Shown: positions 2,438 through 29,267 of the stretch, one piece after another
Layout: the number at the start of each line of letters is the position of its first letter
Numbering within the stretch: position 1 is the first letter of the stretch
Program-made: the position numbers and the translations under genes
The notes under the pieces: model-generated
The model's input: only the letters and a program-made list of their open reading frames with translations
Databases searched by the model: none
Told to the model about the DNA's origin: nothing
Origin: a virus
Length of the DNA stretch: 64,000 nt
Virus record (IMG/VR): IMGVR_UViG_3300017963_000231
Span: 22,829 to 86,828 of that record
Reading direction: 5' to 3' (one strand)

Positions 2438-2767
2438 ATGGCTGAAACAAAGAAAAAGATCAAGGAGATGGGGAAAGTAACCGTTACTCGAACCATGCTT
2501 AAGGCGGGAGTAGAAGAGAAAACGCATGATAAGGAAGAGGAGATCGAAATCACGCCTTTTGTGACTGAGCCCGCGAAAATTGCCGTATCCAAGGGGTTGA
2601 CCTTGAATCTCGGGAATTACCGTTCGGCTCGTATCGATGTATCAGTGGCTATCCCTTGCTATGTGGAAGAGGTAGGGGAAGTTATTGAGCAAGTCAATAA
2701 CCTAGTTGAGGCTCGGGTGATCATGGAAAGGGATTCGGTTCTGAAGGCTGGAAAGAAAGATGCCTGA
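2438..2767 (+). CDS. Small phage protein of unknown function, near RecA-like gene
   Basis: The 109-residue protein is acidic and lysine-rich at the N-terminus. A conserved-looking core follows (LNLGNYRSARIDVSV about residues 56-70, then a proline-cysteine turn and a helix). From memory, similar small proteins with an LNLGNY-S-R-DV core are common in phage recombination regions, but no function is established that I can cite. AAGGAGG precedes the ATG, and the gene overlaps the RecA-like gene by 8 nt, so the two are probably co-translated. Confidence 0.7.
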   Translation: MAETKKKIKEMGKVTVTRTMLKAGVEEKTHDKEEEIEITPFVTEPAKIAVSKGLTLNLGNYRSARIDVSVAIPCYVEEVGEVIEQVNNLVEARVIMERDSVLKAGKKDA

Positions 2768-6095: not shown

Positions 6096-6384
6096 CGTTA
6101 CGGTATCGGGGATGGTAGTAACTCCCGTTCATGAATTGAAAACTCTTTTTGATCATGACTATTTGAATTTCCGTGTAAAAGCGGATGCGGGAAAGGGGTC
6201 GGATATTTTTGTGACGGTCAATGTTTATAGTTATACGCAAATTAAGCTGGCTAAGGATCGAGGACTTAAAAAAGGAGATAGGGTGTGGGTTCAAGGTGAA
6301 CTCATGGCACGCATGACAAATGATTCCGGGCATGACGTAATTGAGGTCCGGGCATTGCAGTTGGATCCAGTTAAGGAGGTTTGA
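6085..6384 (+). CDS. Single-stranded DNA-binding (OB-fold) protein
   Basis: The 99-residue protein follows an OB-fold pattern: a first strand with a GMVV turn, an FRVKAD strand, an FVTVNVYS strand, then KKGDRVWVQGEL, the typical GDxVxVxGxL of SSB. It lacks the long acidic tail of bacterial SSB. The GTG at 6085 follows AGGAGGT with good spacing and overlaps the resolvase gene. It probably coats single strands during replication and recombination. Confidence 0.78.
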   Translation: MANSVTVSGMVVTPVHELKTLFDHDYLNFRVKADAGKGSDIFVTVNVYSYTQIKLAKDRGLKKGDRVWVQGELMARMTNDSGHDVIEVRALQLDPVKEV

Positions 6385-6385
6385 G

Positions 6386-7462
6386 ATGGTTGAAGGTCTT
6401 GAAGATTTTGAGGTAATGGAAAGCGATATTGATGATGCAATTATTGCTGAGGGGGCTGATGCTCTTGATTTTAAGACGGCAGTGATGGAGCTTACGGCTG
6501 AGGAAAAGGACGCTCTTCGGCAGGAAATCAAGGATATTGTGGAGGGAATTGATACCAATATCCTGAAGCTGGGGGGATGTCTCTATAAGGTTCTTGGGTC
6601 CAAATCTTTCCTGGATTGGGGGTTCGAGACTTTTGATGAGTACGCGGAATATGAGGTAAAGCGTAAACGGCGGTGGTGTGAATATATCATGGGGGTCTGG
6701 TATGCCATCACATTTAAGATTCAGAGCGATGAAATCAGGGATCGACTGATAGCGATGGGGACTTCCAAGGCTGGGAGACTCGCGCCTCATATTACCGAGG
6801 AGAATGCTCAAGAGCTTTTGGATGAGGTTGAGACTCTAACCGTGGCCGAAACGGAAGGCCATCTCAGGAAACGCCGCCGGAAAGAAAAGGGGCTACCGGA
6901 GGAGAAAGAAGAGCTTCGGAAGGTGCAACTAGAGTTAACTGTATCACAACGGGACGTGATGAAGTCCGCGTTGGAGGTGGCTCGGGCCGTGGCGGGGGTC
7001 AATGGGACCGGGGAGCAACTTTCGCTGATTTGTACTGAGTTCCTTTCTTCGCATTCGGCTCCTGGGTTGGCTAAAGAGGAGTTGATTGCGGCTCATGTAG
7101 ACGGACTCAAGACGCTTACGGGGTGTAATTACGAGCCTTCAGTTGGCGGGGATATCCTGGCGGTTCTCATGCAAGAGGGGATGAGTAATCCTGAAGGTAT
7201 TAGGTCGAAGATTAAATCGACCGTGAAAGGTCCGCTTACATTGAAAGAGTTTGTGATATTCATGGAAAGTGGAGAGTTTCCGTCCACCGTGGCGACAATG
7301 ACTCCACCGATACCGGCTCCGGATCCGGAGGCATGGGGCGATGAAGAAAGTGATTCGGCAAGTGAGGAGAGCCCGAACGAGGAGATTTCGGGCGATGGTG
7401 GTGAGGTCCAGGATGAGGAGATGGATGAAGAGGGAACTGATGGAGAACTAGAAGATGAGTAG
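6386..7462 (+). CDS. Unknown protein with acidic tail
   Basis: The 358-residue protein starts at ATG 6386 (AAGGAGG upstream) rather than further up in the SSB gene. A helical region with LGGCLYKVL and FDEYAEYEV around residues 55-85 resembles DUF3102/ParB-like phage proteins. A charged KRRRKEKG stretch follows at about 145-152, and the last 45 residues are almost all Asp, Glu, Ser and Gly. The acidic tail could recruit partners, as SSB tails do. No function can be assigned. It closes the recombination operon. Confidence 0.7.
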   Translation: MVEGLEDFEVMESDIDDAIIAEGADALDFKTAVMELTAEEKDALRQEIKDIVEGIDTNILKLGGCLYKVLGSKSFLDWGFETFDEYAEYEVKRKRRWCEYIMGVWYAITFKIQSDEIRDRLIAMGTSKAGRLAPHITEENAQELLDEVETLTVAETEGHLRKRRRKEKGLPEEKEELRKVQLELTVSQRDVMKSALEVARAVAGVNGTGEQLSLICTEFLSSHSAPGLAKEELIAAHVDGLKTLTGCNYEPSVGGDILAVLMQEGMSNPEGIRSKIKSTVKGPLTLKEFVIFMESGEFPSTVATMTPPIPAPDPEAWGDEESDSASEESPNEEISGDGGEVQDEEMDEEGTDGELEDE

Positions 7463-7655
7463 ATGGAAAGCCGGGTTTTACCAGTGGCTATCTTTTAGGT
7501 TGCCTCCTACTCTCGTGTATTTTACTGCGATTAGGCTAATGGCTCACGTAACTACGCATTAATACTCAACATATAATGTGAGTGATGCGCGTGCTTTGGA
7601 TGTTATACAATCTTGGGAGGATTTTTTTCAGATTTATGGTGAAAAAAGTTCTTGA
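7455..7655 (+). pseudogene. Small phage gene interrupted by an in-frame TAA
   Basis: ATG 7455 opens a 35-codon frame that stops at TAA 7560-7562. The same frame then continues without a stop for 30 more codons to TGA 7653-7655. The joined product has WLSFRLPPTLVYFTAIR before the stop and YNVSDARALDVIQSWEDF after it. From memory this matches small (about 60-65 residue) phage proteins with an LP-LVY-IR-TTGKYS-MDALKRW pattern. The TAA falls where that family has Lys, so AAA to TAA is the simplest change. Either the gene is dead, only the 35-residue part is made, or the stop is read through. TAA ends many other genes here, so code reassignment is unlikely. Confidence 0.55.
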
Positions 7656-7680
7656 CAAACGGGAATAGACCGGTTATAAT
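7652..7680 (+). promoter_or_regulatory. Perfect-consensus sigma70-like promoter P2
   Basis: TTGACA (7652-7657), 17-nt spacer and TATAAT (7675-7680). It is the only exact consensus of the eight related promoters and so probably the strongest. It is not followed by a gene for about 500 nt; the transcript would begin near 7687 and contain the structured region below. Confidence 0.85.
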
Positions 7681-7686
7681 GCGTTT

Positions 7687-8160
7687 AGTTCATTGAGGAC
7701 AAGGTTCATTGATAATTAGGTAGGCTTTCAATCGAGGGCGGTCATAAAAATGACCCGTGATGGAAACACAAGGCTAAGGCAGGTCCGACAAACCTTTGAT
7801 CCATCGAGATGAGAGACGGCCATCTCTCGTAGGGACCGTTGGAGAGGGATACTCCAAGGCCGCTTTCGATTGAAGGTCTACCTATAAGGTATTCAGATAG
7901 ATGGTCTAAGAAGGCCCTTATCCGGTTTCCCGATAACAAGGGTAGAAATTTATTCCGGATTTGTAGGAGGATTCAAGTTCCTTCAGTCTATTTGAATTAA
8001 CCATGATGACTTGGCTTTCCTGGCTCGGGAAAGTGGTAAGGGCCATTCGATCAGACCTTAAATTTCACGGAGCACTAAGTCATTCGCATGGACGGGTGAT
8101 TTAGGTGGATAACTAGGTTTGTGGTTGATAGTGAGGACCGGGAGTGGGAATCCCCGGCAA
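7687..8160 (+). ncRNA. Candidate large structured RNA or long structured leader
   Basis: No credible ORF lies between the promoter P2 and the ATG at 8189. The sequence can form many nested helices. Arms 7717-7735 and 7866-7884 pair over 19 bp (two G-U), enclosing hairpins 7740-7745/7750-7755, 7811-7816/7823-7828 and 7839-7844/7852-7857. Further helices are 7920-7925/7955-7960, 7970-7978/7990-7998, and a closed domain 8001-8014/8075-8091 that holds 8015-8020/8028-8033 and 8037-8041/8056-8060. A last helix is 8138-8142/8153-8157. I see no tRNA, tmRNA, RNase P or group I intron core. There is no clear terminator before 8189, so it may be a free RNA or a 5' leader of the downstream operon. Confidence 0.65.
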
Positions 8161-8188
8161 GTCAAGTGGTGAATGGAGGGAATTTTTT

Positions 8189-8377
8189 ATGGAATTCAAT
8201 AAGCACAACAATGACTTAGTACGTAGGTTAAAGGTTCGCAAGGAGGAGTTCGAGGAGGAGAAGGAGATGCTCCTGAATCATCCTGGCGTTACTGAGGAAG
8301 GGCTAAAAATCACTTTGGCTTGGTTGGATCCTATGCTTGAGGATCTGGAGAATAAAATCAGGGGGTTAGAGGGATGA
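8189..8377 (+). CDS. Small coiled-coil protein
   Basis: The 62-residue protein is mostly charged helix (heptad-like Leu/Ile spacing with Lys-Glu runs). The ATG at 8189 follows GGAGGG at 8175-8180; the upstream GTG at 8144 lies in the last RNA hairpin and has no ribosome binding site. It is the first gene downstream of the structured region and ends in an ATGA overlap with the next gene. Function unknown. Confidence 0.65.
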   Translation: MEFNKHNNDLVRRLKVRKEEFEEEKEMLLNHPGVTEEGLKITLAWLDPMLEDLENKIRGLEG

Positions 8378-8898
8378 CGGGTGGCGGTGTAGTCAAGGAA
8401 AAGGTTTTCATTGAAAAGGTTTTCATTGTTCACATGATTGGAAATCCTACTGATTTTCATGGGAATAAGACTAATTTTCTCAATCTTGTGGAACGGGTTA
8501 AGAAGATTGATGAGGTTAGAGGGTCTAGTTTTGCAGATATCGTGGAGCATTGCATCAAAGTGAAGCAAAGTCTTATCGAATCACGGCATGGAGTGCCCAT
8601 TAATGGAGTTACGGTGGTAATGGCTCCAGGAATGGAGCATTTTGCCATTTCGATTTGTAGTGGGATGGATCAGTTTAGCAGGAAAGTAGGCCGTCTCTTG
8701 GCTTTGAATCGGTTGGCGAATAAATTTGGAGTTCTGACCATGCGACCTAAGAAACGGGTGTATTATGAAGGATATCTGATCCTGATGCCTCCGAATAACT
8801 TCTTGGCCGATGAGGCTACCAAAAGAATCAAAATTCCCGATATTCGGGAGGAGTTGGCGTGGCTGGGGGTGTGGGATGGAGAAGAATCAGGCCGTTGA
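8374..8898 (+). CDS. Unknown protein
   Basis: This 174-residue mixed alpha/beta protein has no motif I recognise. Near the start a 15-nt tandem duplication (about 8399-8428) gives KVFIEKVFIVH. It is translationally coupled to the preceding coiled-coil gene through ATGA (8374-8377) and overlaps the following cysteine-rich gene by 23 nt. Confidence 0.65.
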   Translation: MTGGGVVKEKVFIEKVFIVHMIGNPTDFHGNKTNFLNLVERVKKIDEVRGSSFADIVEHCIKVKQSLIESRHGVPINGVTVVMAPGMEHFAISICSGMDQFSRKVGRLLALNRLANKFGVLTMRPKKRVYYEGYLILMPPNNFLADEATKRIKIPDIREELAWLGVWDGEESGR

Positions 8899-9082
8899 GA
8901 AGCAGTGTTGTTTTATTTGTGAGAAACCGTCGAATTGTCATTGGAAATGCGATTGGTTTGACGGTTATTTTGATTGCAGTGGTAAGGTTCCTTGTGGGTC
9001 GTGTCGAAAGTTTAAGCGGTGTGAACCTTTAATTAAGGTTTGTGTTGTAAGTGACGATAATAAGTCAGTTTTACCAATTTGA
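8876..9082 (+). CDS. Cysteine-rich microprotein
   Basis: The 68-residue product has ten cysteines, including CCFIC, a C-H-W-K-C turn, and CGSCRKFKRC. The spacing suggests one or two zinc sites. I chose ATG 8876 because a G-rich sequence precedes it and the protein-like part begins there; an upstream in-frame start at 8810 would only add residues encoded inside the preceding gene. Unknown function. Confidence 0.6.
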   Translation: MEKNQAVEKQCCFICEKPSNCHWKCDWFDGYFDCSGKVPCGSCRKFKRCEPLIKVCVVSDDNKSVLPI

Positions 9083-9099
9083 AAAAGGAGGTCTAAGGA

Positions 9100-9876
9100 A
9101 TGAAAGAGGCTAAGGTAGGAATGATCGATCTCGGAAATACCGGGATGGATGTAGGGTCTGAGCTTTATGATATTTGGCGGGTGAAGATCAAACTTCGGAA
9201 TGTGGTTTACGGCGGGGTGCCCAAGGATCCGAAAATAATTCAGAAGTGGATTGATGAGAAGATCAAGAAGGCCATTAAGGCCGGGCATGACATCACGCCG
9301 GAAATCGCGGAGGAAGAGCGGAAAAGGATCATGGAGACTCTGAATCTGGATGAGGACTCTAAGTGGTGCGGGTTCAAGGATATCTATCAGGGCGAAGAGG
9401 TTGGGCCGTATCTGGACGGCTACAATTTCAAGGCGATGATCCGAGAAGGGGCTACTCAAACCGGAGCCATGCTCCTTCGGTTCTCAAATAACCGGGGACT
9501 TCGCCAGCATTATCAGCATGGGATGCATGTCAAGGCAGGGGACGGCAAAAGCGATATTATCAGGTTGGGTAAGGTGGATGGTCAAGAAGAGTTTGTGGGC
9601 CATGTCAAGACTCCTCAAGGCGAAAAATCCATCCTTTCTCGGCATGATTATGTGGGATCGAGGGAACTTGAATTCCAGGTTTGGAGCCTCGCGGTAGGTA
9701 TCCTGGATGATGAATTGTTGGCCACCATCTTGAAGGCTACTCAGGAGATTGGACTTGGGGCTTGCCGGTCCAGGGAGTTGAGCAAGTTCGATCTTGTGGA
9801 GATGGAGCGGATTCAGGTAGGGAAGATCGACCATTTTCTCAAGATGAAGGCCAAGAAAGGGAAAAAAGACGCATAA
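9100..9876 (+). CDS. Unknown protein, possible RAMP-like C-terminal motif
   Basis: The 258-residue protein has a strong AAGGAGG site and typical phage codon use. It contains an early beta-strand segment (WRVKIKLRNVVYGG), a helical insert rich in Lys and Glu, and YLDGYNFKAMIREGA around residues 107-121. Near the end LGACRSRELSKFDLVEME resembles the glycine-rich loop and following strand of RAMP-superfamily (Cas5/6/7-like) RNA-binding proteins, but the loop lacks the usual run of glycines. That resemblance is weak and not an assignment. It is the last gene before the repeat-rich non-coding region. Confidence 0.65.
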   Translation: MKEAKVGMIDLGNTGMDVGSELYDIWRVKIKLRNVVYGGVPKDPKIIQKWIDEKIKKAIKAGHDITPEIAEEERKRIMETLNLDEDSKWCGFKDIYQGEEVGPYLDGYNFKAMIREGATQTGAMLLRFSNNRGLRQHYQHGMHVKAGDGKSDIIRLGKVDGQEEFVGHVKTPQGEKSILSRHDYVGSRELEFQVWSLAVGILDDELLATILKATQEIGLGACRSRELSKFDLVEMERIQVGKIDHFLKMKAKKGKKDA

Positions 9877-10356
9877 TGTGCGGAGATTTTCCCACAAGGA
9901 GTATGGTTTTTTCAGGCGGATGATTTTAACGCTTTCGGGATCATTTTAGCGTGAGGGGATTCATTTCCGATTTTTGTGGATGATTGGGCTTCTTGTGGGA
10001 AGTGGAGGGTCAACTTAGAGTTGACGGGAGTTATCGGCCCCTCCCGGCTGAGAATGACTTTGAAACGGCGGGGTTTCAGGGTAATTTGATCTTTGACAAT
10101 TCAGTGGGACAAGTCAGGCTAGATCAGTACAAATCATGGGGACTTATCTACTCTGTGCAATACTACTCAGTTCAAATCGAGAGGACTTTTCCTTGCGCTA
10201 CCTATCGGAACGGCAAGACTGATCCAGTCATCTCAACTTATATCAAATCGGAGCGACTTTGCGTTACCAGTCCACTCAGGTCGTTATGACTCATCGGATC
10301 ATCTCAACTCGTGTCTAGAGGACCAATCAGCTAGAGGCAAATCGGAACGTATCCAT

Positions 10357-10391
10357 GGGACTAATCTAATCAAATCTGTTCTGAGAGACTA
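10357..10391 (+). repeat. 35-nt direct repeat, copy 1
   Basis: This copy differs from copy 2 (10456-10490) at one base (position 7 of the unit). It contains TCTAATCAAATC and ends GAGAGACTA. The two copies start 99 nt apart. Confidence 0.8.
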
Positions 10392-10455
10392 CACTATACA
10401 ACGCACTACGAAACGGTATGACCACTCATGACGGAGCAAGGCGAAGCTATGCCCA

Positions 10456-10490
10456 GGGACTTATCTAATCAAATCTGTTCTGAGAGACTA
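10456..10490 (+). repeat. 35-nt direct repeat, copy 2
   Basis: Second copy of the 35-nt repeat. Its first 12 bases, GGGACTTATCTA, also occur at 10139-10150 at the start of the first degenerate unit. Confidence 0.8.
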
Positions 10491-10577
10491 GGCACTTCAT
10501 TACCTATCATTGTGACATATCAATTCGATTCCAGGGGACATATCAAACCGCTACTGATCGATACGGAGGGACAAAAT

Positions 10578-11165
10578 ATGAAATTAATGGTTTGCAATAA
10601 ATGCGGAGATGTGATTTTTCCTCGCGGGGAAGCGGGGATATGGAAGTGGTGTATTTGCGGAAACATTGGAGGCATGTACGAGGACGGGTTGAAGTTTCTT
10701 GTGGCGATTGACGATCCGGATTATGCTCGGGTTGTGGGGATCGATAACAATGTTCTCGTAGGGAACTGTGACTTAGGGGAGATATGGAAGCAAAAGCCGG
10801 GTGATCCAGCTTCCGGACGTAACCTGAAGGAGATATCCATTACCGAGGCCAGACGGGTTTACGGGTACTCTGGAGAGGCTTCGGATACTCTTGTGATCGA
10901 CTTGGCTAAGGTGGTAGGGGTAGTTCCATCTGATTCGAGCCCGTGCTTTTCGGAAATGGTGTTCCATCTTGTCATGAAGGCTGATCGTATTAATAGGGAG
11001 AGGCTCAGAGCTATCTTCCCTATTTATGTTCAAATGGTGGATAGATTCCAGCTTAAAGACGGGGTTATCGCTCATCCTCAGCATCCGGAGATGGGGTTTT
11101 ATGAGCCTTGCGGGGATAAGGGCTATCAGTGGCGATATCCTTTAGATACGGAGATAAGCAAGTAA
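10578..11165 (+). CDS. Unknown protein with N-terminal zinc ribbon
   Basis: The 195-residue protein starts with CNKCG and a second pair CIC about 20 residues later, a zinc-ribbon pattern. The remainder is mixed alpha/beta with no motif I know. ATG 10578 is chosen because GGAGGG lies just upstream (10566-10571); the longer frame back to 10428 would run through the repeat unit and is not convincing. A clear terminator follows, so this gene ends a transcription unit. Confidence 0.7.
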   Translation: MKLMVCNKCGDVIFPRGEAGIWKWCICGNIGGMYEDGLKFLVAIDDPDYARVVGIDNNVLVGNCDLGEIWKQKPGDPASGRNLKEISITEARRVYGYSGEASDTLVIDLAKVVGVVPSDSSPCFSEMVFHLVMKADRINRERLRAIFPIYVQMVDRFQLKDGVIAHPQHPEMGFYEPCGDKGYQWRYPLDTEISK

Positions 11166-11169
11166 AAAC

Positions 11170-11197
11170 GGGGGCTTCGGCCCCCTAAATTTTTTTC
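11170..11197 (+). terminator. Rho-independent terminator
   Basis: A 6-bp G/C stem (GGGGGC 11170-11175, GCCCCC 11180-11185) closed by a UUCG tetraloop is followed by TAAA and a T run interrupted once by CA. It starts 4 nt after the stop of the preceding gene and immediately precedes promoter P3. Confidence 0.92.
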
Positions 11198-11235
11198 ATT
11201 TTTTTCTTGACAAACGGTTTTATAGGTGTTATACT
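11187..11235 (+). promoter_or_regulatory. Promoter P3 with T-rich upstream block
   Basis: TTGACA (11207-11212), 17-nt spacer and TATACT (11230-11235). Bases 11187-11224, including the two T runs upstream, are identical over 38 nt to 63494-63531, so the whole cassette is duplicated in the genome. It drives the MoxR gene cluster. Confidence 0.85.
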
Positions 11236-11302: not shown

Positions 11303-11473
11303 ATGAAAAGCATCAAGGAATTAGAGATAGACATCATCGAGGCGGAAGAGGCCATCGAGATGGAAAATAACCCTGAAATGATCCAGTTTTGGGAAGAGGA
11401 AATCAAAGACACAAAGGCGTTGATCGATGAGATCCAGTGGGCTCTTCACATGGTTCCGGCGGTCACAAAGTAA
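11303..11473 (+). CDS. Small acidic helical protein
   Basis: A 56-residue protein, too short for many gene callers, starts at ATG 11303 after AGGAGGGG and ends at TAA 11473. It is highly acidic with a helical hairpin look (two runs of Glu/Ile/Lys about 25 residues each). It is the first gene of the P3 transcript, directly before the AAA+ ATPase. Function unknown; an accessory or inhibitor role is only a guess. Confidence 0.65.
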   Translation: MKSIKELEIDIIEAEEAIEMENNPEMIQFWEEEIKDTKALIDEIQWALHMVPAVTK

Positions 11474-11487
11474 GGAGGGAAAGTAGG

Positions 11488-12330
11488 ATGGCTGAAGCTA
11501 AGGCAAGTGAGAAAAGGTTGGTTCCGGCCCTAATCGATGGGTATGTGGACTTTCCTTGGATGAAAATCCTGGATGATGGTATCGAGCATAATGATCGAGT
11601 TTTGCTCGTTGGCCATTGCGGGGTTGGAAAGACCAGTTCCGTTGAGCAATTGGCGGCTCGCGGGAATTATGAGTGCCGTCGGGTCAATCTGAATGGGCAA
11701 ACTACCATTTCTGATATGGTGGGCCAGTGGATTGCCAAGGACGGTGAGACGGTGTGGGTTGATGGGATCGTTCCTCAAGCGATGAAGAACGGCCAGTGGC
11801 TCATTCTGGATGAGATCGATTTCGCGATGCCGGAGATTCTGGCAGTGCTCCATTCCGTGCTGGAAGATGATGGATTCCTTGTTCTGGCGGAAAAAGATGC
11901 TGAGGTTGTACGGGCTCATAAGGATTTCAGGGTAATTGCTACTGCCAATAGCATTGGGGCCGATGCCGTGGATCGGGGCCTTTATCAGGGAACTCAGGTG
12001 ATGAATGAGGCGTTTCTTGATCGATGGTCTTGTGTACTCAAGATTGGATGGCCCCCGCAAGAGATTGAGGCTTCCATCCTGGAAAAGCGGGTCAAGGGGC
12101 TCCCTACTTCCGTGGCGGTCCTGATTGTCCGGATTGCTACGGACCTTCGAGGGGCTTTGGAGAAAAATGAGATCATGACCACGTTTTCTCCTCGAAAGTG
12201 CCTCCAGTTGGCGGAAAAGGCCGTGAGGTATGGGGAGGTCATGCGGGCGGCTCAGGTAACAATTTTCAATAAGCAACCCGATGAGGAACGCAAGGTTTTT
12301 GAGGCAGTGTTTCAGCGGTGGTTGGGATAA
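11488..12330 (+). CDS. MoxR/CobS-type AAA+ ATPase
   Basis: The 280-residue ATPase has Walker A GHCGVGKT (42-49), a following segment with LNGQTTISDMVGQ typical of MoxR/CobS proteins, and Walker B LILDEID (105-111). A sensor-1 ATAN motif occurs about residue 151-154. MoxR ATPases act as chaperones on partners with VWA domains, and the VWA protein two genes downstream is the expected partner. ATG 11488 follows GGAGGG at 8-nt spacing; the longer frame from 11437 would overlap the small upstream gene. CobS-like genes of unknown target are known from other phages. Confidence 0.88.
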   Translation: MAEAKASEKRLVPALIDGYVDFPWMKILDDGIEHNDRVLLVGHCGVGKTSSVEQLAARGNYECRRVNLNGQTTISDMVGQWIAKDGETVWVDGIVPQAMKNGQWLILDEIDFAMPEILAVLHSVLEDDGFLVLAEKDAEVVRAHKDFRVIATANSIGADAVDRGLYQGTQVMNEAFLDRWSCVLKIGWPPQEIEASILEKRVKGLPTSVAVLIVRIATDLRGALEKNEIMTTFSPRKCLQLAEKAVRYGEVMRAAQVTIFNKQPDEERKVFEAVFQRWLG

Positions 12331-12342
12331 GGAGGGGTGATC

Positions 12343-12792
12343 ATGACTACCAAGGTAATAGAGGATAAAGGTGTGGCCGTTTTGAGGCAAGGTAAAGAGA
12401 CTTACAAGGTTCTGATCGATCCAAATAACAATGAGGTCAAAGCGGTCCACATTTCCGGTCCCGGCATGGAAAAGACCTTCAGTAAAGGTACTCGGAGTGA
12501 TCTTTATTCGGCTATCAAACTGGCGAAAGACGTGGTGGCTGAGAAGGTTAAGGACGGATGGGTAAGTAAGGAAACCAATTTTGGTTCCCTTGTGGAAGAT
12601 GTCTACAATATGGGCCTTGATAACGTATCAAAAGCCTCTAAAAAGAAAGGTAAAAAAGGGAAATACGTTATCGAGGAAGTGAAAGACAATGTTCCTCCTC
12701 CCCCTCCCTCGATCAAGGATCTTTTCAAGATGACTCCAGTGGATATCAGTAAGCTGGCGAAAAGTGAGCTTGAAAAAGTGGCTCGGAAGTAA
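12343..12792 (+). CDS. Unknown protein between MoxR and VWA genes
   Basis: The 149-residue protein has an N-terminal beta-rich part, a lysine cluster (KKKGKKGK about residues 104-111), a run of six prolines near 122-127 and a helical C-terminus. ATG 12343 is at 5-nt spacing from GGAGGGG; GTG 12337 would sit inside that site. Its position between an ATPase and its likely VWA partner suggests an adaptor or substrate of the same complex. I do not recognise a family. Confidence 0.65.
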   Translation: MTTKVIEDKGVAVLRQGKETYKVLIDPNNNEVKAVHISGPGMEKTFSKGTRSDLYSAIKLAKDVVAEKVKDGWVSKETNFGSLVEDVYNMGLDNVSKASKKKGKKGKYVIEEVKDNVPPPPPSIKDLFKMTPVDISKLAKSELEKVARK

Positions 12793-12801
12793 GAAAAATT
12801 C

Positions 12802-12830
12802 TTGACAAACTATTTTATAGGTGCTATACT
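12802..12830 (+). promoter_or_regulatory. Promoter P4
   Basis: TTGACA (12802-12807), 17-nt spacer ending TTTTATAGGTGC and TATACT (12825-12830). It gives the VWA gene its own transcript besides readthrough from P3. The short leader contains a CGTTAAG element found after two related promoters. Confidence 0.82.
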
Positions 12831-12863
12831 AGGTTTTATCGTTAAGTCAAGGAGGGAAACAAA

Positions 12864-14786
12864 ATGGAATCGGCCTTAGCAAAAGTAGCGAAAATCATGG
12901 CAAGGGAATACGGGTTGAATGTCCGGTTCACCGGGTCCGGGGCTTGCGTTAACCTTAAAACCAAGGAGATGCAACTTCCGGCCCTGGATGATCCGGTCAT
13001 TTTTGAGACCATTTCCGGGTATTTGGACCATGAGGTTGCTCATGTAAGGTTTACGGATATCGTTCCGTCAATTAAGGATTCTCTGACCATGGATCTTTTC
13101 CGGGTGTTGGAGGATGTGAGGGTTGATCGGGATATGGGCAATCTTTACACCGGCTCCCATAAGAATATCGGGCGGACTCGGAAGGCCGTGTATGAGGCTC
13201 TTTTCACGGAAGCCAATGACCTAAATGAGATGTTCTGGATGGATATTCTGGAAATGACTTCGGGCCGGATGGAGTTCGATGAAATGGGTCCGATGGCTCA
13301 GGAAGCCGTTCTCAAAGCCCTTGATCTTTTCATGGGTCTGGATGAGATAAAGACCACGGCTGATTGTGTAAGCCTTTGCGAGAAGATTGCCAAGCGGTGG
13401 AGGGATACCGATGCCAATCCTACTCCTCAGCCGTCTCCTGGAGGCTCTGAGGAGGAGCAAGAGGGGGATAGTGATGGTTCCTCTGATTCTGGCGGTCAGG
13501 GGGATTCTGAGGGCGACTCAAAGGAAGGATCTAAGGGGGGATCAAAGAAAAAAGGCAAGAAGGGCTCGAAAAAAGAGGGAGAGGAAGATAAGGACGGTGA
13601 GGGCAAGAAAAAAGGCAAGGGAAAAAAGAAGGGCGAGGGCAAGAAAAAAGATAAGAAGGGCGATAAAACGGGAGATGTAGACTCTCCTGATGCGAATAGC
13701 AACAAGCATGCTCCGAAGGATGGAGGAACGGAAGCGGCGGGTATCCGGCGGGAGGATGTGGATATCGCCATTATTCGGGATTACGATAAACTGGATTTGA
13801 TCGATCCTGAAAAAGCGTTGGATCACGGGATCAATAAGATCATAAACGCTCAGGTCAAGAAGTGTGCGAATGATGTTCATATCCCTTTTACCACGGAATA
13901 TGATGTGGTTAAAGACGATTCAAAATCCCGGAACACGATAAAAGAGAAAGCCATAAGGGAGGAAGTTAAAAGTACCGTTGGAGTGTTGATCAGGCGGCTT
14001 CAGATGGTTCTTTTGGCTCGGGATCGGGCAAGGGATCGGTTTGAGCTTGATCGGGGTAGGATCGATTCGAGGAGGCTTCATCAGCTTATCCATAAAACGT
14101 CTAATCGAGTGTTTAAGACTCGGGTAGAGGCCGAAACCGAGAGTACCGCCGTTTATCTCTTAGTTGATTGCTCGGGTTCGATGGGAGGAAAGAAAATTAT
14201 AGCGGCTCAGAAGGCGGCTTGCGCGTTTTCAGCTTGTCTCGATCAGCTTGGGATTGTGCATGAAGTAGGTAGTTTTCAGTGTGTCAAGTCTGAGGAGATA
14301 AGAAATGCGTTCGAACAATACATTGAGGCTAACGGCATGGATTGTTATGATTCTCCGTTTAATAGGTATTATGAAATCCTTTCTCATAGCATTGTAAAGC
14401 GATTTGATCAGCCTTTTGCGCAAGGGGCTTTCGCGAATTTAATGGCGGGGTGTAACAATTGTGACGGTGAATCCGTGAGGGTAGCGGCTCGTCTTTTGGC
14501 TCAGAGGCCGGAAAAACGTAAGATTCTTATGGTGTTTTCGGACGGGATGCCTAGTTGTTATTCGGACCATGATTTGCTCCATAAGGATCTTAAAAAGGCC
14601 GTGAAGGAAATCATGGATGCCGGGATTGAGACTATTGGGGTCGGGATCAGGACCAGTGCTCCAAAGATGTTTTATCCTGATTGGATTCTGATCGATGATA
14701 TAACGACTCTTCCTACGGAAGTGATCAGTCAGCTTGAGAAGTTACTCTTTAATGGGATGATCGGGAAAAAGCGGAGGGTAGCGTGA
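12864..14786 (+). CDS. CobT-like VWA protein with HExxH motif
   Basis: This 640-residue protein has three parts. The N-terminus carries DHEVAH (H56, E57, H60), a zinc-metallopeptidase-type HExxH. A long, Gly/Ser/Lys/Asp-rich low-complexity linker spans about residues 190-280. The C-terminal VWA domain has a complete MIDAS start DCSGS (435-439) and a later DGMP turn. The arrangement resembles cobaltochelatase CobT-like proteins seen in phages, paired with CobS/MoxR ATPases. Real cobalt chelation is doubtful because no CobN or cobalamin genes are present. A MoxR-driven remodelling or proteolytic system is more likely. Confidence 0.85.
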   Translation: MESALAKVAKIMAREYGLNVRFTGSGACVNLKTKEMQLPALDDPVIFETISGYLDHEVAHVRFTDIVPSIKDSLTMDLFRVLEDVRVDRDMGNLYTGSHKNIGRTRKAVYEALFTEANDLNEMFWMDILEMTSGRMEFDEMGPMAQEAVLKALDLFMGLDEIKTTADCVSLCEKIAKRWRDTDANPTPQPSPGGSEEEQEGDSDGSSDSGGQGDSEGDSKEGSKGGSKKKGKKGSKKEGEEDKDGEGKKKGKGKKKGEGKKKDKKGDKTGDVDSPDANSNKHAPKDGGTEAAGIRREDVDIAIIRDYDKLDLIDPEKALDHGINKIINAQVKKCANDVHIPFTTEYDVVKDDSKSRNTIKEKAIREEVKSTVGVLIRRLQMVLLARDRARDRFELDRGRIDSRRLHQLIHKTSNRVFKTRVEAETESTAVYLLVDCSGSMGGKKIIAAQKAACAFSACLDQLGIVHEVGSFQCVKSEEIRNAFEQYIEANGMDCYDSPFNRYYEILSHSIVKRFDQPFAQGAFANLMAGCNNCDGESVRVAARLLAQRPEKRKILMVFSDGMPSCYSDHDLLHKDLKKAVKEIMDAGIETIGVGIRTSAPKMFYPDWILIDDITTLPTEVISQLEKLLFNGMIGKKRRVA

Positions 14787-28726: not shown

Positions 28727-28729
28727 CAC

Positions 28730-28758
28730 TTGACAAGTCGGTATATTTATGTTTTACT
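28730..28758 (+). promoter_or_regulatory. Promoter P6
   Basis: TTGACA (28730-28735), 17-nt spacer and TTTACT (28753-28758), 3 nt after the portal stop. Weaker -10 than its relatives. It drives two small genes that end at a strong terminator, so this is a separate short transcription unit inside the head module. Confidence 0.65.
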
Positions 28759-28806
28759 CAATAATGAAAGGTTGAAGGGCCTTTCCAACCAAAGGAGGAT
28801 AAAGAC

Positions 28807-28980
28807 ATGGCAAAGAATCAAGCGGGATTGACTGGACCAATCGGTGGGACTGCCAAGCGGACTTCTGCGGTGATCGACACTGGAAAGCAGAATAACGATC
28901 CGATGGCTTCTCCGGATTCCAAATCCAGCATGAAAACTCCCAATCTGACTGCTCGCAAGCAACGCCGGATGGCAGAGTAA
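28807..28980 (+). CDS. Small basic, disordered protein
   Basis: A 57-residue protein rich in Lys, Ser, Thr, Asn and Pro with few hydrophobic residues, probably disordered. AAAGGAGG precedes the ATG; a small hairpin (28768-28788) lies in its leader. Expressed from its own promoter P6 between portal and protease genes. Not recognised. Confidence 0.6.
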   Translation: MAKNQAGLTGPIGGTAKRTSAVIDTGKQNNDPMASPDSKSSMKTPNLTARKQRRMAE

Positions 28981-28993
28981 GGGGGGCGGGGCC

Positions 28994-29191
28994 ATGGCCC
29001 GTAGGAATGATAAGTTCCTGCGTCAAGCAACGGAAGCTATTGCTTCTAATGCCAAACCGGGTTTCCATGGCGAAGTCACCGTCCAGGTGAAAATTCAGAA
29101 TGGGGTTATCCAGAGTGGTCATGTAGAGAAGTCTACTCGGGTGTCCCGGCAAGGGAACACTACGTTAGTAGAAAAGATCAAACTGGATTGA
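28994..29191 (+). CDS. Small protein, DUF2292-like
   Basis: The 65-residue protein has a basic helical start, then GEVTVQVKIQNGVIQSGHVEKS, a beta-hairpin pattern like the small DUF2292/YezD family (GSVEIxVxDGxxVxIxxxEK). The function of that family is unknown. Second gene of the P6 unit. Confidence 0.6.
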   Translation: MARRNDKFLRQATEAIASNAKPGFHGEVTVQVKIQNGVIQSGHVEKSTRVSRQGNTTLVEKIKLD

Positions 29192-29228
29192 GCTAGTCGG
29201 TATTAGCCGGGCCTCATGGTATCAGGCA

Positions 29229-29267
29229 AGCCGCTAAGGGGTTATTATGCCCTTTAGCGGCTTTTTT
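29229..29267 (+). terminator. Rho-independent terminator
   Basis: AGCCGCTAAGGG (29229-29240) pairs with CCCTTTAGCGGCT (29250-29262) with one bulge, followed by TTTTTT. It ends the P6 transcript 38 nt after the second small gene. Confidence 0.92.

Follow-up and report, generated by a model that had tools for sequence, protein, structure and literature searches.

A predicted large RNA with three multi-branched domains ahead of a protein operon in an uncultured tailed phage

Few classes of large ornate phage RNAs exist, and the functions of GOLLD and ROOL have not been established. Both are phage RNAs that form RNA-only cages; GOLLD RNAs are often longer than 800 nt and are found close to tRNA islands, and in OLE the intermolecular dimer contact uses a GGCC-type palindromic loop (PMC12286853). 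The RNA described here shares its position between a promoter and an operon, and the predicted possession of mutually exclusive folds, with long structured 5' leaders such as riboswitches and put-type antiterminators. Put and typical riboswitches are much smaller than this RNA.

The RNA segment lies in a window of 64,000 nt (the whole stretch of DNA that was analyzed), which corresponds to bases 22829-86828 of the 86.8-kb linear IMG/VR record IMGVR_UViG_3300017963_000231. The record comes from an uncultured tailed phage with almost all genes on the + strand. The segment follows a recombination block and is followed by small genes with unknown products. The features of the region are as follows (window positions):

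Upstream, recombination block in the order helicase-like gene, RecA/UvsX-like recombinase, endonuclease, exonuclease-like gene, RuvC-like resolvase, SSB-like gene, 6341-7462
7618-7652, no strand assigned, A/T-rich inverted repeat (AGGATTTTTTTCA / TGAAAAAAGTTCT) immediately 5' of the promoter, not terminator-like on the + strand
7652-7680, + strand, sigma70-type promoter TTGACA-17-TATAAT, transcription start expected near 7687
7688-7719, + strand, direct repeat, two copies of GTTCATTGA, where the transcript is expected to begin
8175-8180, + strand, Shine-Dalgarno sequence GGAGGG, beginning 4 nt past Domain 3 (see below), with the ATG at 8189
8189-8377, + strand, opening ORF of the unit, starting at the ATG at 8189 and encoding 62 aa, without a family match, coding-like score 0.22
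8374-8898, + strand, second ORF, 174 aa, without a family match
9100-9876, + strand, third listed ORF, 258 aa, distantly related to a hypothetical protein of Microcystis phage Mae-JY09 (28% identity, E 3e-14)
11170-11193, + strand, intrinsic terminator GGGGGCTTCGGCCCCC followed by a T-run, the first clear terminator downstream, with the next promoter at 11207

The promoter at 7652-7680 is the sole 12/12 match to TTGACA-17-TATAAT in the window, as the original prediction had stated, and one further match is present in the record at genome position 19524, outside the window. The same prediction had placed the structured segment at 7652-8188; this includes the promoter, and the RNA proper should begin near 7687. 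At 11 of the 14 phage promoters examined, the leaders measure 13-69 nt, being mostly short and largely unstructured (for two of the three exceptions, the requirement for a ribosome-binding site may have produced an artefact), and the longest leader, of ~500 nt, belongs to the 7652 promoter. Promoters of a recurrent form, TTGACAAAC-(T-rich spacer with TTTTATA)-TATA[AC]T, lie at window positions 11207, 12802, 62911 and 63514 and at record positions 1519, 4196 and 6127, and the leaders behind them are mostly short and unstructured. These near-identical TTGACAAAC...TATAxT promoters likely represent the host-type sigma70 promoter set of the phage.

A protein-coding reading of 7687-8188 was ruled out by six-frame coding scores and stop counts: no frame reached the score of any in-frame 501-nt coding chunk of the phage (best + frame -0.47, coding minimum +0.06), and each of the six frames contained 7-16 stops. 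The claim that the promoter is followed by about 500 nt without a gene thus holds, and the encoding of a conserved protein, which had been named as evidence that would count against the structured RNA, was not borne out.

The next question is whether the segment folds better than its composition predicts. Its minimum free energy is -184 kcal/mol, compared with -147 +/- 6.5 kcal/mol in dinucleotide shuffles (z -5.7; none of 100 shuffles was as stable), a high z that is not specific by itself, as two unrelated phage intergenic stretches reach -7.4 (L049:14173-14579) and -11.8 (L072:19132-19760). These two stretches lack an Rfam match and consist partly of long simple hairpins. In a comparison of 217 + strand windows of 490 nt from the whole 86.8-kb record, none of the others outdid its shuffles by as much as the segment did (-36.5; mean -5.4, sd 9.0). 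Its stability is spread across many helices, unlike that of the runner-up, the window at 28773, whose excess is partly due to a strong terminator hairpin at 29228-29267. This hairpin illustrates the strong terminators used elsewhere in the phage; it ends a pair of short uncharacterized ORFs (57 and 65 aa; window 28727-29267), both of which carry ribosome-binding sites.

Strand comparison of the segment favored the + strand (z -5.8 versus -4.2 on the - strand; 0/60 shuffles as stable). Moreover, one state had a probability above 0.9 at 74% of positions, compared with 30 +/- 12% in 60 shuffles (maximum 63%). Three tight junctions, each with at least four arms, were also found in 14 of 300 shuffles and are only moderately unusual. 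These single-sequence statistics support the original prediction that a strong promoter drives a large structured RNA, and in our view 7687-8188 is likely to correspond to a real structured RNA.

The predicted fold, a strong single-sequence prediction, comprises three self-contained multi-branched domains:

7717-7884, + strand, Domain 1 (D1), five-way junction with 2 unpaired nt, closed by the 23-bp stem 7717-7739/7862-7884
7740-7755, 7756-7808, 7809-7830 and 7833-7861, + strand, predicted branches of D1
7782-7786, + strand, GGTCC, located in the second branch of D1 within its large loop, candidate pseudoknot with GGACC at 7833-7837 or 8135-8139
7817-7822, + strand, hairpin loop CGGCCA with the palindrome GGCC, possibly a self-kissing loop
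7891-7997, + strand, Domain 2 (D2), cloverleaf-like four-way junction, closed by the 12-bp stem 7891-7902/7986-7997
7903-7916, 7920-7960 and 7966-7984, + strand, predicted branches of D2
7966-7984, + strand, T-loop-like hairpin inside D2 with the 7-nt loop UUCAAGU
8000-8170, + strand, Domain 3 (D3), five-way junction, closed by a stem in two parts, 8000-8004/8166-8170 and 8007-8013/8158-8164
8014-8034, 8035-8044, 8047-8128 and 8138-8157, + strand, predicted branches of D3

All three domains persist once the downstream ORF is added to the fold. The D1 stem has a mean pair probability of 0.99, and values of 0.87-1.0 when the downstream sequence is folded along. A pairing between the 5' end and the Shine-Dalgarno sequence, seen if the fold stops at 8188, is gone with the downstream sequence included and was rejected. 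The GGTCC and GGACC segments proposed originally are present in the sequence (7782 and 7833, with another GGACC at 8135), and their pairing is a candidate pseudoknot, a type of contact outside the reach of a nested-fold program.

The helices proposed originally are only partly recovered in this model. The 19-bp helix 7717-7735/7866-7884 is present but extends to 23 bp, and it encloses four branches, not three hairpins. In the proposed middle domain, 7920-7925/7955-7960 belongs to the minimum-energy fold, whereas 7970-7978/7990-7998 is replaced by the hairpin 7966-7984 within the stem 7891-7902/7986-7997. A closed domain formed by 8001-8014/8075-8091 is abandoned, as it is 16 kcal/mol worse than closing by 8000-8013/8158-8170.

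D2 resembles a tRNA cloverleaf in its four-way junction, its T-loop-like hairpin and a 5-nt "variable" linker; the loop UUCAAGU fits UUCRANN, the tRNA T-loop consensus. It differs from tRNA in its 12-bp closing stem and in a 4-nt "D-loop" without GG. A tRNA identity for D2 was rejected, as ARAGORN called none and no tRNA model matched up to E 5. The window contains no tRNA, and the only tRNA of the record is a tRNA-Gln ~21 kb away.

Does the RNA belong to a described family? A cmscan with all 4227 Rfam families, which detected tRNAs and one tmRNA in other phage loci as a control, gave no match in the window at gathering thresholds and none credible in the segment at permissive thresholds. GOLLD, group I/II introns and other catalogued ribozymes are thus among the models without a match. 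The ROOL covariance model (RF03087) run directly on the phage's own record gave no match even at E<=10; the control genomes held no ROOL, and the sensitivity of this search rests on Rfam cut-offs. These searches place the window RNA outside ROOL, GOLLD and all other Rfam families, in line with the initial reading of the sequence, in which neither GOLLD nor ROOL was recognized and neither a tRNA nor a group I intron core was seen.

The likeness to ROOL consists in being phage-encoded, ~500-660 nt long and multi-branched, with probable pseudoknots and no encoded protein. The RNA gives no sequence or structure match to ROOL and differs from it in the ribosome-binding site of a protein gene beginning 4 nt past the fold; moreover, ROOL often lies near tRNA islands, whereas the window RNA is not beside tRNA genes. 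With GOLLD it shares the character of a large ornate phage RNA without a known function, but it is ~480 nt long and, again, not adjacent to a tRNA island. OLE is likewise a large self-contained bacterial RNA, and a GGCC loop is present here as well (7817-7822); the window RNA gives no Rfam match to it.

Homologues were sought by several routes. With the segment as a BLASTN query, phages and plasmids yielded only chance 20-40-nt matches, and searches of viral and genome collections for exact 16-mers from the three domains returned only short chance matches; those of a D1-branch 16-mer, examined in context, had nothing in common beyond the motif. IMG/VR and GTDB probes found no homologue of the RNA. 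Single-sequence covariance models of D1 and D3, run on the fetched loci and ~60 whole related viral records, yielded no credible match outside the window, the weak matches being at chance level (D1 at E 0.25 and 2.8, D3 at E 0.13). The neighboring proteins led to a single fragment from this virus itself (L002/L091, 100% identical), which ends before the RNA, and to relatives of ~25-50% identity, which have no comparable intergenic RNA. Since the phage lineage is sparsely sampled, the lack of homologues says little about function.

Parts of D2 and D3 can also pair with each other:

7913-8044, + strand, inter-domain helices 7913-7920/8037-8044 (GGCCCTTA/TAAGGGCC) and 7926-7933/8025-8032 (TTTCCCGA/TCGGGAAA)

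These are two perfect 8-bp helices in register, and such a double helix occurred in 2 of 2000 shuffles, a figure obtained after the feature had been spotted. In transcripts ending at 8060-8100, the D2-D3 fold comes to within 0.1-0.4 kcal/mol of the optimum; with 8158-8170 present, the three-domain fold is favored by about 8 kcal/mol. This balance is a predicted bistability, which suggests a possible switch during transcription but is no evidence of one.

The initial reading had left two options, a separate non-coding RNA or a leader, and the anatomy favors the leader. The RNA lies between the promoter and the first ribosome-binding site, no intrinsic terminator was found between the end of D3 (8170) and the ORF at 8189, the ribosome-binding site begins 4 nt past D3, and the first clear terminator comes only at 11170; therefore, the simplest view is that the RNA forms the 5' portion of a message of ~7687-11190. 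We tentatively suggest, as the likeliest reading, a cis-acting role for it as a structured 5' leader of the operon message. We infer that the RNA is made and that the fold forms in the following way. The phage would transcribe the message (about 7687-11190) from about 7687, and the first ~480 nt would fold into a stable three-domain module ending 4 nt short of the first ribosome-binding site. The nascent RNA might pass through, or be held in, the competing D2-D3 fold, and the synthesis of 8158-8170 would drive it into the three-domain fold. The leader might then set the fate of the message through 5' end protection or elongation control.

The leader differs from riboswitches and put-type antiterminators in its expression platform, as neither an attenuator (terminator scan) nor start-site sequestration (fold prediction) was seen. 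The predicted accessibility of the Shine-Dalgarno sequence and start site hardly differs with and without the leader (0.69 versus 0.74), which argues against a classical riboswitch, and by the tests made, the RNA does not appear to work like one. A cis-acting leader of this kind would count as one of the more elaborate in phages. Its size and self-containment are unusual for a leader and speak against this reading, as they could equally indicate a separate RNA; that the searches returned no homologue in which helices could be seen to covary also counts against it.

Such a separate RNA would work like GOLLD or ROOL: the module would be cut from the operon transcript, be abundant and perhaps self-assemble by loop-loop contacts. 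This is a real but less probable possibility. The ~480-nt length with three tightly packed multi-branched domains, a downstream gene that is not part of the fold, the lack of an expression platform, and the phage setting, as for ROOL and GOLLD (PMC12286853), are all consistent with it. The proposed contacts are the palindromic loops CGGCCA and CATGGA and the GGTCC/GGACC pair; however, palindromic loops are weak evidence, ROOL and all other Rfam families are without a match, no terminator or other 3' boundary precedes the ORF, and the only tRNA of the record is ~21 kb away. The cis-acting leader is slightly preferred over a separately processed ornate RNA. Alternatively, the stability might be incidental, in non-coding DNA that is functionless or in decay, such as a former gene or an inactive mobile intron; this would agree with the absence of homologues in every collection searched, but it is improbable given that none of the 100 and 60 shuffles folded as well, that definedness exceeded all 60 shuffles, that no Rfam intron or ribozyme matched, and that a perfect promoter is aimed into the segment in a compact phage genome. 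Replication can proceed via an R-loop or primer RNA, as in ColE1 RNA II and T4 origins. A comparable role for a transcript from the recombination/replication block is even less probable: RecA-like, RuvC-like and SSB-like genes are nearby, and the A/T-rich inverted repeat (7618-7652) and direct repeats lie at the promoter, yet GC skew is positive across the whole record with no turning point at the segment, no iteron array is present, and nothing specific ties the fold to priming.

It is conceivable, albeit doubtful, that the RNA represents a novel class among the large RNAs of phages, characterized by its three multi-branched domains, by the lack of a relationship to GOLLD, ROOL and OLE, by its location directly ahead of a protein operon and by the ability to switch to the D2-D3 cross-paired fold. 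If confirmed, an unrelated ornate-type RNA in the leader of an identifiable operon would be tied to specific phage genes, which would make its role testable.

The neighborhood offered several further observations. Window positions 11437-14786 encode a pair consisting of a CobS-like AAA ATPase and a CobT-like VWA protein, as in cyanophages and some other phages. In related phages, RecA and helicase genes (L039:7700-10744, L039:3406-6006; L021:1-2175) contain large in-frame insertions resembling inteins, and an HNH-like stretch is present in one of these. Directly upstream of RecA, window positions 2438-2767 encode an uncharacterized protein of ~109 aa with the motif GLTLNLGNYxSARxDV plus PCY, and the same protein is present in ~40 IMG/VR loci (L091-L132) from many divergent phages that share the helicase/RecA order.
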